From: a virus
Direction: 5' to 3' (one strand)
DNA length: 64,000 nt
IMG/VR virus record: IMGVR_UViG_3300023184_000033
Location: 1-64,000 of that record
In this document: positions 8,563-50,569 of the stretch, piece by piece
Position numbering within the stretch: the stretch's first letter is position 1
How the letters are laid out: each line of letters begins with the position of its first letter
Made by a program: the position numbers and the translations under genes
The notes under the pieces: generated by a model
Told to the model about the DNA's origin: nothing
What the model saw: only the letters and a program-made list of their open reading frames with translations
Database searches by the model: none

Positions 8563-10353
8563 TTATCCTTCACAGGCTATGCAGTCATTACCCATGGCAA
8601 TTTCTGTCATATCCAATTCTTTAATTACTTGTCTTTCGATTTTCTTAGATACTTTATCTGCTTTACCAATCTTTTCAGAACGGCAGTAGTAAAGTGTCTT
8701 CAATCCTTTTTTCCATGCCATGAAATGAATAGCATGAATATACTTAATGTGTGCATCTGGTCTAAAGAATAGATTCAGTGATTGTGCTTGGTCGATGTGT
8801 TCTTGTCTGTCTGCTGCGAGGTCGATGACCCAACGTTGGTCAATTTCCATAGAAGTTTTGAAAACTGATTTTTCATCATCAGTAAGAATATCAAGATGCT
8901 GGCAGGAGCCATCATTAGCAATAATAGAACTCCAAGCATCAGCATAAGCTTGTTCATTTCCATTTGTCTTTTCCTTTACGATAAAATCTAACCAACGGTT
9001 CTTATTCAGATGTGAGCCAGAAAGCGTATCCTGACGATAAGCGTTAGCACGATAAGGTTCAACACTAGGGCTAGTATTTCCCATAATGATAGACGAAGAA
9101 GCATTTGGAGCAATAGCCATAAGATGACTAAAACGTTTACCAGTGCCACTAGCATCTGGAGCCTCACCTCGTTCTTCACCCAATTTAAGATTCGCTGCAT
9201 CTAATTTGTCCCGAATGTTTTTGAAGATTTTTCTATTTGATACTTTTGCAACAACACTCTCAAAGGGAATTTTGTTACGTTGTAAGTAAGCATGAAACCC
9301 AAGAGCGCCAATACCAATGCTACGCTCACGTTCAGCAGAATATTTAGCTCTGGCAATTGAACTTGGAGCGTTATCAATAAAATACTGAAGAACGTTATCA
9401 AGCATTTCTGCCACATCCTTAAGGAATAGTTCATTGTCTTTCCATTCATCATAAGTTTCAAGATTCAATGAAGACAAACAGCAAACAGCAGTACGTTCTT
9501 CATTGGTCGGTAAAATAATTTCAGAACACAGATTTGATTGGTGTACTTTTAGTCCAAGGTTTTTTAACCATTGCGGTAAAAAACGATTACTTGTATCAAT
9601 AAAATGTATATATGGTTCACCTGTGTGCATACGTAGTTCGAGAATCATCTGCCACAACATCTTAGCGGAAACCACTTCTCTTATTTCTTTGGAATTTGGA
9701 TCAATCAACTGCCACGAATCATCTACTTCAGAATCTAACATGCATCTTTCAATAATGTGCATGAAGTCATCGGTAATGTTAATACCATGATGTAGATTCA
9801 AACAACGTACATTGGGGTCACCTGTTGGTTTACGCATCTCCAAGAAGGGAATGATATCTGGATGAGAAATATCTAGATAAGCAGCATAAGACCCACGGCG
9901 TGTTGTACCTTGTTTGTATGCATGTGTTGATGCATCATAAGTCTTCAAGTGAGGCATTACACCAGTAGATTTATCACTCGCTGAACGAATACCAAATCCA
10001 ATACCCACACCACCACCCATCATTGACAACCAACTAGTTTCACTAAAGTTGTTGACTAATCCTTCCGCAGTATCCTCAATGTAATTAAGGAAACATGATA
10101 TAGGCAGACCACGCTTACTGCGACCAAAAGATAAAATGGGAGTAGAATAAGAGAGCCAATGCTTACTGCTATATTCGTATAATCTCTGTGCATGTTCTTT
10201 GTTTGTTCCAAATGATTTTGATACAAATGCAAATCTGTGTTGCGGTGATTCCTCATCATCCTTCATGTACGATTCTTTTAATCGTTTAATTCCCAATTCA
10301 TCAAAAAGTTTGTCTCTTTCTAAATCGATGTTTATACCTAGGTACTCTGACAT
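8563..10353 (-). CDS. nrdA: Ribonucleotide reductase class Ia, alpha subunit, lacking an ATP cone
   Basis: A 596-aa catalytic subunit. Expected residues are present: the cysteine of PISCFLN, the NLCSEI motif (Asn, radical Cys, Glu), the CCL segment, the YY radical-transfer pair in KTLYYCRSEK, and the redox pair in the tail CIACEG. It is about 150 residues shorter than E. coli or T4 NrdA because it starts at the catalytic core, without the N-terminal ATP-cone regulatory domain. Loss of dATP feedback inhibition is the expected consequence (inference). Confidence 0.95.
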   Translation of the reverse strand: MSEYLGINIDLERDKLFDELGIKRLKESYMKDDEESPQHRFAFVSKSFGTNKEHAQRLYEYSSKHWLSYSTPILSFGRSKRGLPISCFLNYIEDTAEGLVNNFSETSWLSMMGGGVGIGFGIRSASDKSTGVMPHLKTYDASTHAYKQGTTRRGSYAAYLDISHPDIIPFLEMRKPTGDPNVRCLNLHHGINITDDFMHIIERCMLDSEVDDSWQLIDPNSKEIREVVSAKMLWQMILELRMHTGEPYIHFIDTSNRFLPQWLKNLGLKVHQSNLCSEIILPTNEERTAVCCLSSLNLETYDEWKDNELFLKDVAEMLDNVLQYFIDNAPSSIARAKYSAERERSIGIGALGFHAYLQRNKIPFESVVAKVSNRKIFKNIRDKLDAANLKLGEERGEAPDASGTGKRFSHLMAIAPNASSSIIMGNTSPSVEPYRANAYRQDTLSGSHLNKNRWLDFIVKEKTNGNEQAYADAWSSIIANDGSCQHLDILTDDEKSVFKTSMEIDQRWVIDLAADRQEHIDQAQSLNLFFRPDAHIKYIHAIHFMAWKKGLKTLYYCRSEKIGKADKVSKKIERQVIKELDMTEIAMGNDCIACEG

Positions 10354-48523: not shown

Positions 48524-48594
48524 TGGCTCCAGTGGAAGGAATCGAACCTTCATTGGTTGTATACGGACCATGTTACCATTACATTACAACTGGA
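48524..48594 (-). tRNA. Degenerate tRNA, isotype undetermined
   Basis: Acceptor (TCCAGTT/CACTGGA, last pair broken), T arm (GAAGG TTCGATT CCTTC) and CCA are good. The anticodon arm plus variable region is about four bases short; a TGGT/ACCA stem leaves a nine-base loop CCGTATACA without a U33. Possible anticodons are GTA or TAT. Confidence 0.55.
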
Positions 48595-48939: not shown

Positions 48940-49013
48940 TGGTAGGGGCACAGAGAATTGAACTCTGGTTAATAGGTTAAAAGCCTACTACTTTACCACT
49001 AAGTTATACCCCC
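48940..49013 (-). tRNA. tRNA-Lys (TTT)
   Basis: GGGGGTA/TGCCCCT acceptor, anticodon loop CTTTTAA, T-loop TTCAATT, encoded CCA. Its 5' end abuts a stem-bounded spacer RNA. Confidence 0.92.
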
Positions 49014-49138
49014 ATCATTTGTTTTGCTGACGCACTATTTGCTATGCTCAACGGATTCATTTGCAAATTTACCGTTTCTGTACATAGTTACTTAGAGTTG
49101 ACGTTTACTCAATGGCTTACATCAACAAAACAAATGAT
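49014..49138 (-). ncRNA. Stem-bounded structured RNA A
   Basis: A 13-bp perfect closing stem (49014-49026 with 49126-49138) encloses 99 bases. Inside, CTATG (49042-49046) pairs with CATAG (49083-49087) around AACGG (49050-49054) with CCGTT (49072-49076). The 3' strand of the closing stem directly abuts the 5' end of tRNA-Lys. No coding potential is seen. Confidence 0.72.
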
Positions 49139-49139
49139 A

Positions 49140-49353
49140 CCATATTAAAATACATTAGGATGCGATTGTCGTTCCAGAACTTCATCTGGCTTCTCACGGC
49201 TTCGTCTGCCGATAAGACAATCTACACATTACGATTCAACTAATTCCAGCGCAGTCGGATTGCTTCATGTAACTTATAAGGTTCACAGCGGCCTGTGATA
49301 CGTGCCAAATAAGTCACCTACTGGAGTTGGTAACCTAATGTATTTTAATATGG
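49140..49353 (-). ncRNA. Stem-bounded structured RNA B
   Basis: A 20-bp perfect closing stem (49140-49159 with 49334-49353) encloses 174 bases. Domain 1: 7-bp GATTGTC (49164-49170) with GACAATC (49216-49222) around hairpins CCAGA/TCTGG (49174-49189) and CGGC/GCCG (49197-49211). Domain 2: nine-pair stem 49269-49277 with 49309-49317 around CACAG/CTGTG (49284-49297). The closing stem begins with the CCA of tRNA-Glu. This is far beyond chance folding. Confidence 0.8.
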
Positions 49354-49426
49354 CGTCCCGTAGGGGATTCGAACCCCTGTGAATAGCGTGAAAGGCTACT
49401 ATCCTAGGCCTCTAGATGAACGGGAC
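49351..49426 (-). tRNA. tRNA-Glu (TTC)
   Basis: GTCCCGT/ACGGGAC acceptor, anticodon loop CTTTCAC, T-loop TTCGAAT, encoded CCA that overlaps the closing stem of RNA B by three bases. Confidence 0.93.
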
Positions 49427-49433
49427 AATATTA

Positions 49434-49458
49434 AATACAATCTAATTTTTAAAGAACA
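49434..49458 (-). promoter_or_regulatory. boxA-like antitermination sequence, copy 1
   Basis: On the minus strand TGTTCTTTAAAAATTAGATT, eight bases before tRNA-Glu, resembles boxA of proteobacterial rRNA operons (TGCTCTTTAACA and the betaproteobacterial TGTTCTTTAAAAATT). A near-identical 26-base copy precedes tRNA-Gln at 50543-50569. Confidence 0.6.
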
Positions 49459-49521
49459 TTTGCTAGTAATTTTTCAACTAGCGGCCTCGGGGATTCGATC
49501 CCTCTGCATTGCAATCAAGCA

Positions 49522-49604: not shown

Positions 49605-49632
49605 ATTATATACGAACCGGTTGGTTTGTCAA
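49605..49632 (-). promoter_or_regulatory. Sigma70-like promoter for the leader, tRNA-Glu and spacer RNAs
   Basis: TTGACA (49632-49627), 16 bases, TATAAT (49610-49605) on the minus strand. Downstream lie the twin hairpins, boxA, tRNA-Glu, RNA B, RNA A and the rest of the array. Confidence 0.75.
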
Positions 49633-50245: not shown

Positions 50246-50337
50246 TGGCGGAAGACAGAGGAGTCGAACCCCATCCCATTTCTGAGAACCTGGTTTTCAA
50301 GGCCAGTCGCAGGACCATCCCCGCTGCATTATCTTCC
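50246..50337 (-). tRNA. tRNA-Ser (TGA)
   Basis: Class II tRNA, GGAAGAT/GTCTTCC acceptor, long variable arm, anticodon loop CTTGAAA, T-loop TTCGACT, encoded CCA. Confidence 0.92.
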
Positions 50338-50340
50338 GTT

Positions 50341-50469
50341 GCCATATAGAAACTCTCTGTAGGATTTGCACCTAATTGTAACCTTATCTTCCTTGCAGGT
50401 TCTTGTATTGGTCGACTTTTACAAGTTTACTGTTTTCAAGTGTAGTTACACAGAGAGTTTTTATATGGC
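50341..50469 (-). ncRNA. Stem-bounded structured RNA C
   Basis: A 20-pair closing stem (50341-50360 with 50450-50469, one mismatch or wobble) encloses 89 bases with hairpins AACCT/AGGTT (50380-50401) and CTTGTA/TACAAG (50402-50425). Its first bases (GCCA) are the 3' end of tRNA-Gln and it ends four bases before tRNA-Ser. Confidence 0.72.
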
Positions 50470-50542: not shown

Positions 50543-50569
50543 AAATACAATCTAATTTTTTAAAGAACA
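50543..50569 (-). promoter_or_regulatory. boxA-like antitermination sequence, copy 2
   Basis: TTGTTCTTTAAAAAATTAGA on the minus strand, three bases before tRNA-Gln. It is the same element as at 49434-49458 with one extra A. Confidence 0.6.

Follow-up and report, generated by a model that had tools for sequence, protein, structure and literature searches.

A 214-nucleotide (nt) spacer in a phage tRNA cluster encodes a structured RNA, hereafter element A, which belongs to a real RNA family: one fold is kept through compensatory changes across 53 full-length copies from contigs of uncultivated phages. Within the databases and literature that we searched, this family is probably undescribed. The window that we analysed is 64,000 bases long (positions 1–64,000 of the 163,824-base IMG/VR record IMGVR_UViG_3300023184_000033), and all coordinates refer to it unless another contig is named. 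The replication genes of the record (DnaB-like helicase and T4 gp43-type phage DNA polymerase) are a T4-type phage set, the helicase being about 62% identical to its counterpart in T4-like cyanophages. At least 25 tRNA genes are clustered on the minus strand at 44.5–50.5 kb of the window. Read along that strand, tRNA-Glu(UUC) (49351–49426; identified with ARAGORN) is followed by element A (49140–49353), then without a gap by a second stem-closed RNA, element B (49014–49139), and then by tRNA-Lys(UUU) (48940–49013). Element A occurs once in the genome.

Fold and conservation of element A

Element A is closed by a long helix, P1, whose 5′ arm (49334–49353, minus) starts with CCA and whose 3′ arm (49140–49159, minus) ends with UGG. 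An initial annotation had described 49140–49353 as a perfect 20-bp inverted repeat (49140–49159/49334–49353) enclosing two multibranched domains with 7-bp and 9-pair stems. Coordinates and stems were all correct: the repeat is exact with 174 nt between its arms, both domains are present, and the 9-pair and 7-bp stems lie at 49317–49309/49277–49269 and 49222–49216/49170–49164, respectively. Folded on the minus strand, which is the tRNA strand, the element reaches −73.9 kcal/mol, compared with −47.1 ± 4.2 kcal/mol for shuffled sequences (z = −6.4), and none of 200 shuffles was as low.

Domain 1 (49237–49329, minus) comprises P2, P3 and P4. P2 pairs 49329–49320 with 49250–49245 and 49240–49237, P3 is long with an apical G(C/A)CG loop at 49292–49289, and P4 is small, being enlarged in L030, L032, L047, L074 and L094. 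Domain 2 (49160–49227, minus), which contains the core CGGCAGACGA.GCCGUGAGAA, comprises P5, P6 and P7; P5 leads to P6, whose invariant GACG-containing loop lies at 49207–49201, and P7 is absent from L007 and L026. Outside the helices, the motifs GGUUA.C, UAGGU, ACA.GAA and GUAAUG, together with the G(C/A)CG and GACG loops, are present in at least 85–96% of the 53 copies. No consistent palindrome or other assembly signal was found in element A, and covariation outside the helices gave no convincing tertiary contacts. In one contig (L100, positions 9854–9904), the inside of the element is deleted and the closing stem alone is left. The variant is a warning that the inner part of element A can be lost and, if this contig is correct, the RNA is dispensable in that phage.

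Relatives were sought in IMG/VR with the exact 20-base arm, then with the conserved core CGGCAGACGANGCCGTGAGAA and then with a relaxed form of the core. Viral matches to the relaxed pattern in L039, L041, L042, L044 and L046 were taken as chance, with no tRNAs near and no closing stem. Alignment of 26 distinct full-length copies with MAFFT gave a consensus fold of 57 pairs, 30 of which have two-sided compensatory changes; 97.7% of cells are paired (88.1% when shuffled), with a covariation score of 0.311 (0.138 when shuffled). A covariance model built from these copies and run on loci fetched by an unrelated pattern, that of element B, found many further full-length copies with E-values of 1e-60 to 1e-14. 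Among 27 relatives left out of model building, two-sided changes are seen in 54 of 62 pairs. With all 53 copies they are seen in 55 of the 62, with 96.3% of cells paired and a covariation score of 0.521, compared with 0.176 for shuffled alignments (0 of 500 as high) and at most 0.076 for slid controls. In P1, 17 of the 20 pairs have two-sided changes.

Model-fitted alignments lean towards the model; yet the score of 0.52 compares with less than 0.08 in slid controls, and the alignment made with MAFFT only agrees. No correction for shared ancestry was applied to the cell counts, and the relatives all come from metagenome contigs, more than 50 in number, found in partial scans only. Pairwise identity among members falls as low as 36%, and G–U pairs make up about 8% of the pairs in the family. 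The model is also strand-specific, scoring 232 bits on the tRNA strand and 37 on the opposite strand. This strand specificity, together with the common G–U pairs, therefore points to selection on the RNA. The initial annotation had proposed that a lack of compensatory stem changes in related phages would refute its reading; such changes are abundant.

With Rfam 15, at curated and at permissive thresholds (E up to 10), the window and nine related loci match only tRNA models, with no overlap with the element A interval beyond the tRNA-Glu gene and none for element B. The Rfam covariance models of ROOL and GOLLD have no match to element A. Sensitive blastn with several variants of A and B gave no real match in cultured phages and plasmids, and the core pattern of element A initially gave none in bacterial and archaeal genomes. 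Twenty relaxed-core matches in the latter genomes were taken as chance, with neither a closing stem nor a tRNA nearby. We found no description of element A or B RNAs in the literature searched, most subscription journals being outside its scope. That no known family is recognisable here, as the initial annotation had put it, therefore holds, and the absence of an Rfam match combined with the covariation makes element A an unlisted RNA family.

Genomic setting and the neighbouring element B

The closing stem had been claimed to start with the CCA of tRNA-Glu, and the first three bases of P1 are indeed the CCA of tRNA-Glu(UUC) (49353–49351, minus), common to the tRNA and element A. Every tRNA-fused copy (37 of 37; tRNA-Glu in 36 and tRNA-Gln in 1) begins with CCA and ends with UGG, whereas of the 13 unfused copies, which have no tRNA directly upstream and keep the whole fold, 10 begin with CUA, 1 with AUG and only 2 combine an initial CCA with a final UGG. 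Three further copies lie at contig edges, and the comparison is not corrected for shared ancestry. The tie to CCA thus goes beyond chance, and the end of P1 follows what the adjoining tRNA requires. The claimed tie between tRNA 3′ processing and this RNA thus holds at the level of sequence only, the processing itself being inferred, and it is not obligatory, as about one quarter of the family has no tRNA directly upstream. All 563 tRNAs within 2 kb of element A copies lie on the same strand as the element and none on the opposite strand. In L009 and L010 the final GG of element A doubles as the initial GG of the next tRNA, and the element fills the gap exactly.

Upstream of the unit is a sigma-70-type promoter, TTGACA-16-TATAAT with 12 of 12 consensus bases (49605–49632, minus), and similar promoters precede many relatives of element A. 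A boxA-like antitermination site, TGTTCTTTAAAAA (49446–49458, minus), lies just upstream of tRNA-Glu, and a second boxA-like site (50557–50569, minus) lies upstream of tRNA-Gln, the first tRNA of the cluster. Across the 163.8-kb record, the shorter boxA form TGTTCTTTAAAA is matched exactly at only two places, before tRNA-Glu and before tRNA-Gln. A boxA-like site is present no more than 230 nt upstream of element A in 34 of 49 relatives, where the remaining sequence of those contigs predicts 0.44 such cases; none was found upstream of A in the remaining 15. Most copies without a tRNA directly upstream have boxA about 50 nt before the element. Two rRNA sequences served as controls: in E. coli rrnB, boxA occurs in the 16S leader and again after the spacer tRNA-Glu, and a Burkholderia rRNA leader (TGCTCTTTAAAAATT) differs from the phage sequence (TGTTCTTTAAAAATT) at one base over 15. 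In E. coli, boxA is sufficient for formation of the rRNA antitermination complex, and 30S biogenesis depends critically on a leader–trailer helix of more than 17 bp (PMC10250234). The form of the phage site could hint at a betaproteobacterial host, an inference that rests on boxA alone. That element A is made by antiterminated transcription like that of an rRNA operon is likewise inferred, with no data on a transcript, NusB–S10 binding or Rho resistance. The initial annotation mentioned neither this boxA and promoter module nor the second RNA family that the next spacer represents.

That spacer, element B (z = −5.5 as RNA), has its own family of relatives, including L072, L094 and L126, and, having no Rfam match, is a second unlisted RNA family. 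A pattern scan returned at least 119 stretches, which lie mainly in tRNA clusters and in many cases directly downstream of A, and element B is found in more contigs than element A. Its apical loop carries the palindrome ATTTGCAAAT (49059–49068, minus), the position of which is conserved while the sequence varies and self-complementarity is kept. The palindromes of the family, mostly 8 nt and at a fixed place, include CCAGCTGG, GTGGCCAC, CTAGCTAG, CTTGCAAG, GCTGCAGC and CCGGCCGG, among others. A palindrome of at least 6 nt is found in 86% of distinct element B loops but in 21% of shuffled ones, a few of the distinct loops being chance pattern matches. Self-complementarity that is kept while the sequence varies is the expected trace of a kissing-loop homodimer, suggesting from sequence alone that element B may form such dimers. 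Element B can also occupy the slot directly after tRNA-Glu instead of A, with CCA again inside the stem.

Element B cores with other closing stems are also found outside tRNA clusters (L085, L089, L097, L108, L112, L134, L146 and L155), and in L112 the core apparently lies inside tRNA-like sequence. In L018, element B, between A and tRNA-Lys, is naturally reduced to its stem; together with the stem-only form of element A in L100, this deletion could guide work on the role of the stem alone.

Proposed mechanism and rival explanations

On balance, and with moderate confidence, we favour the reading that element A is a trans-acting structured RNA, produced from a module resembling an rRNA operon (promoter, boxA and closing helix) and freed by processing of the tRNA transcript; transcript, processing, binding and target are all inferred. 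RNA polymerase would start at the promoter (49632–49605, minus), boxA would load the host NusB–S10 antitermination complex in the manner of rRNA operons, and Rho would not terminate the untranslated tRNA–RNA transcript. The 20-bp P1 stem, like the rRNA leader–trailer helix, would insulate the folding of the two domains and offer a cut site for RNase III; its length of 20 bp, which flanking TA pairs extend to as much as about 22 bp in some relatives, would permit RNase III cleavage but says no more. Cleavage of the stem would free the 3′ end (CCA) of tRNA-Glu and release RNA A, which would act through its invariant unpaired motifs (GGUUACC, UAGGU, the G(C/A)CG loop, ACAnGAA, GUAAUG and the GACG loop), its likeliest roles being a host-factor scaffold or decoy, or one component of an RNA assembly that includes element B. 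The trans role is inferred because these motifs are invariant at identities down to 36%; release by RNase III or RNase P is predicted only. A bolder reading, which cannot be put higher than a possibility, is that large phages carry rRNA-operon-like units making the small structured RNAs A and B; during infection these would form a complex, either RNA-only or ribonucleoprotein, and the shared CCA would couple their release to tRNA maturation.

The main rival, itself possible, is that element A acts only in cis, as a spacer that insulates tRNA folding, times the 3′ maturation of tRNA-Glu by burying its CCA within a stem, and is afterwards degraded. In its favour, CCA always lies within the closing stem where A follows a tRNA, A sits flush between tRNA-Glu and the next tRNA in L009 and L010, sharing GG with the latter, L100 retains the closing stem alone, and element B fills the same slot after tRNA-Glu in other phages. 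This reading accounts for the stem and for the CCA. It leaves unexplained the inner loops that remain invariant at identities down to 36%, since a stem alone would suffice for a spacer, and the 13 members that keep the whole fold with no tRNA directly upstream. We consider it unlikely that A and B belong to an RNA-only assembly joined by kissing loops, as in the phage RNAs ROOL and GOLLD, which occur close to tRNA islands and use kissing loops to build cages (PMC12286853). The variable palindromes at a fixed place in element B loops (86% versus 21% shuffled) and the frequency with which A and B are direct neighbours speak for such an assembly; against it, A has neither a consistent palindrome nor a covarying contact outside its helices, both elements are far smaller than ROOL or GOLLD, and B is also found without A and outside tRNA clusters.

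It is a very remote possibility that element A is mobile, an inverted-repeat element inserting at the 3′ ends of tRNAs. Its inverted ends, its presence or absence among related phages and its exchange with element B at the same slot would fit, but with few exceptions the element keeps to one locus, that of tRNA-Glu or boxA, its ends covary rather than being fixed, it is single-copy in the genome, and it has no consistent target-site duplication and no long open reading frame inside. Readings of element A as a DNA cruciform or as coding sequence were rejected alongside. That the stem and fold reflect chance or a DNA-level feature without RNA function is all but ruled out: nothing favours it beyond the absence of transcript data, whereas covariation in 53 relatives exceeds shuffled and slid controls, holds in an independent test set and is accompanied by frequent G–U pairs.

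Known systems and further features of the cluster

Like ROOL and GOLLD, element A is noncoding, highly structured, phage-borne, located beside tRNA clusters and of unknown function, and element B shares the kissing-loop theme, with palindromic loops that support dimers for B alone. The differences are of size, element A, at about 215 nt, being several times smaller than ROOL and than GOLLD, which is often longer than 800 nt, and of architecture, element A having a 20-bp closing stem fused to the tRNA CCA and an upstream boxA. The small stable RNAs of the T4 tRNA cluster, to which the initial annotation pointed, are rnaC and rnaD (species 1 and 2 stable RNAs, 139 and 119 nt), which likewise lie beside tRNA genes of a T4-type phage. 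This comparison holds for the setting only: a long closing stem is absent from the folds of both RNAs, rnaC has a T-arm-like hairpin at its end, and a search of the T4 locus (L189) with the element A covariance model, allowing E-values up to 1, gave no match. The bacterial rRNA operon offers a further likeness, with a promoter, boxA, a long closing helix (about 20 bp here) around a structured noncoding RNA, and tRNA-Glu in the transcript (PMC10250234), whereas none of the Rfam rRNA models identifies the RNA inside the phage helix as rRNA.

The usual view of phage tRNA clusters is that they supplement codons or counter defences that cut tRNAs; here they also house at least two unlisted structured RNA families, A and B. 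Conserved RNAs of such complexity tend to have specific roles. The boxA module provides a concrete, testable idea for how phages may express long untranslated RNAs, and the covarying palindromes of element B make phage RNA assemblies testable on small RNAs.

Another stem-closed spacer lies 3′ of tRNA-Gln (50341–50469, minus; z = −5.1), between it and a tRNA-Ser-like gene, with CCA inside its stem, boxA upstream of tRNA-Gln and a layout like that of the element A unit; its homologs were not tested. A general rule by which stems would close every tRNA spacer of these phages end to end was dropped, as it held in only 6 of 98, in a test that is blind to tandem elements such as A–B. A third stem-closed element, C, of about 150–160 nt, lies between tRNAs downstream of A in L005, L008, L014, L023 and L028, and its core pattern TAACCG....TCGCT.G is present in 17 contigs. 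Two tRNA-like genes were missed by ARAGORN: one at 50250–50337 (minus), whose best match is the tRNA-Sec model, below its cut-off, and which is probably tRNA-Ser, and one at 48528–48593 (minus), which the general tRNA model matches. In the leader before boxA, at about 49480–49500 (minus), there is a T-arm-like remnant (GGGATCGAATCCC), perhaps of a decayed tRNA.
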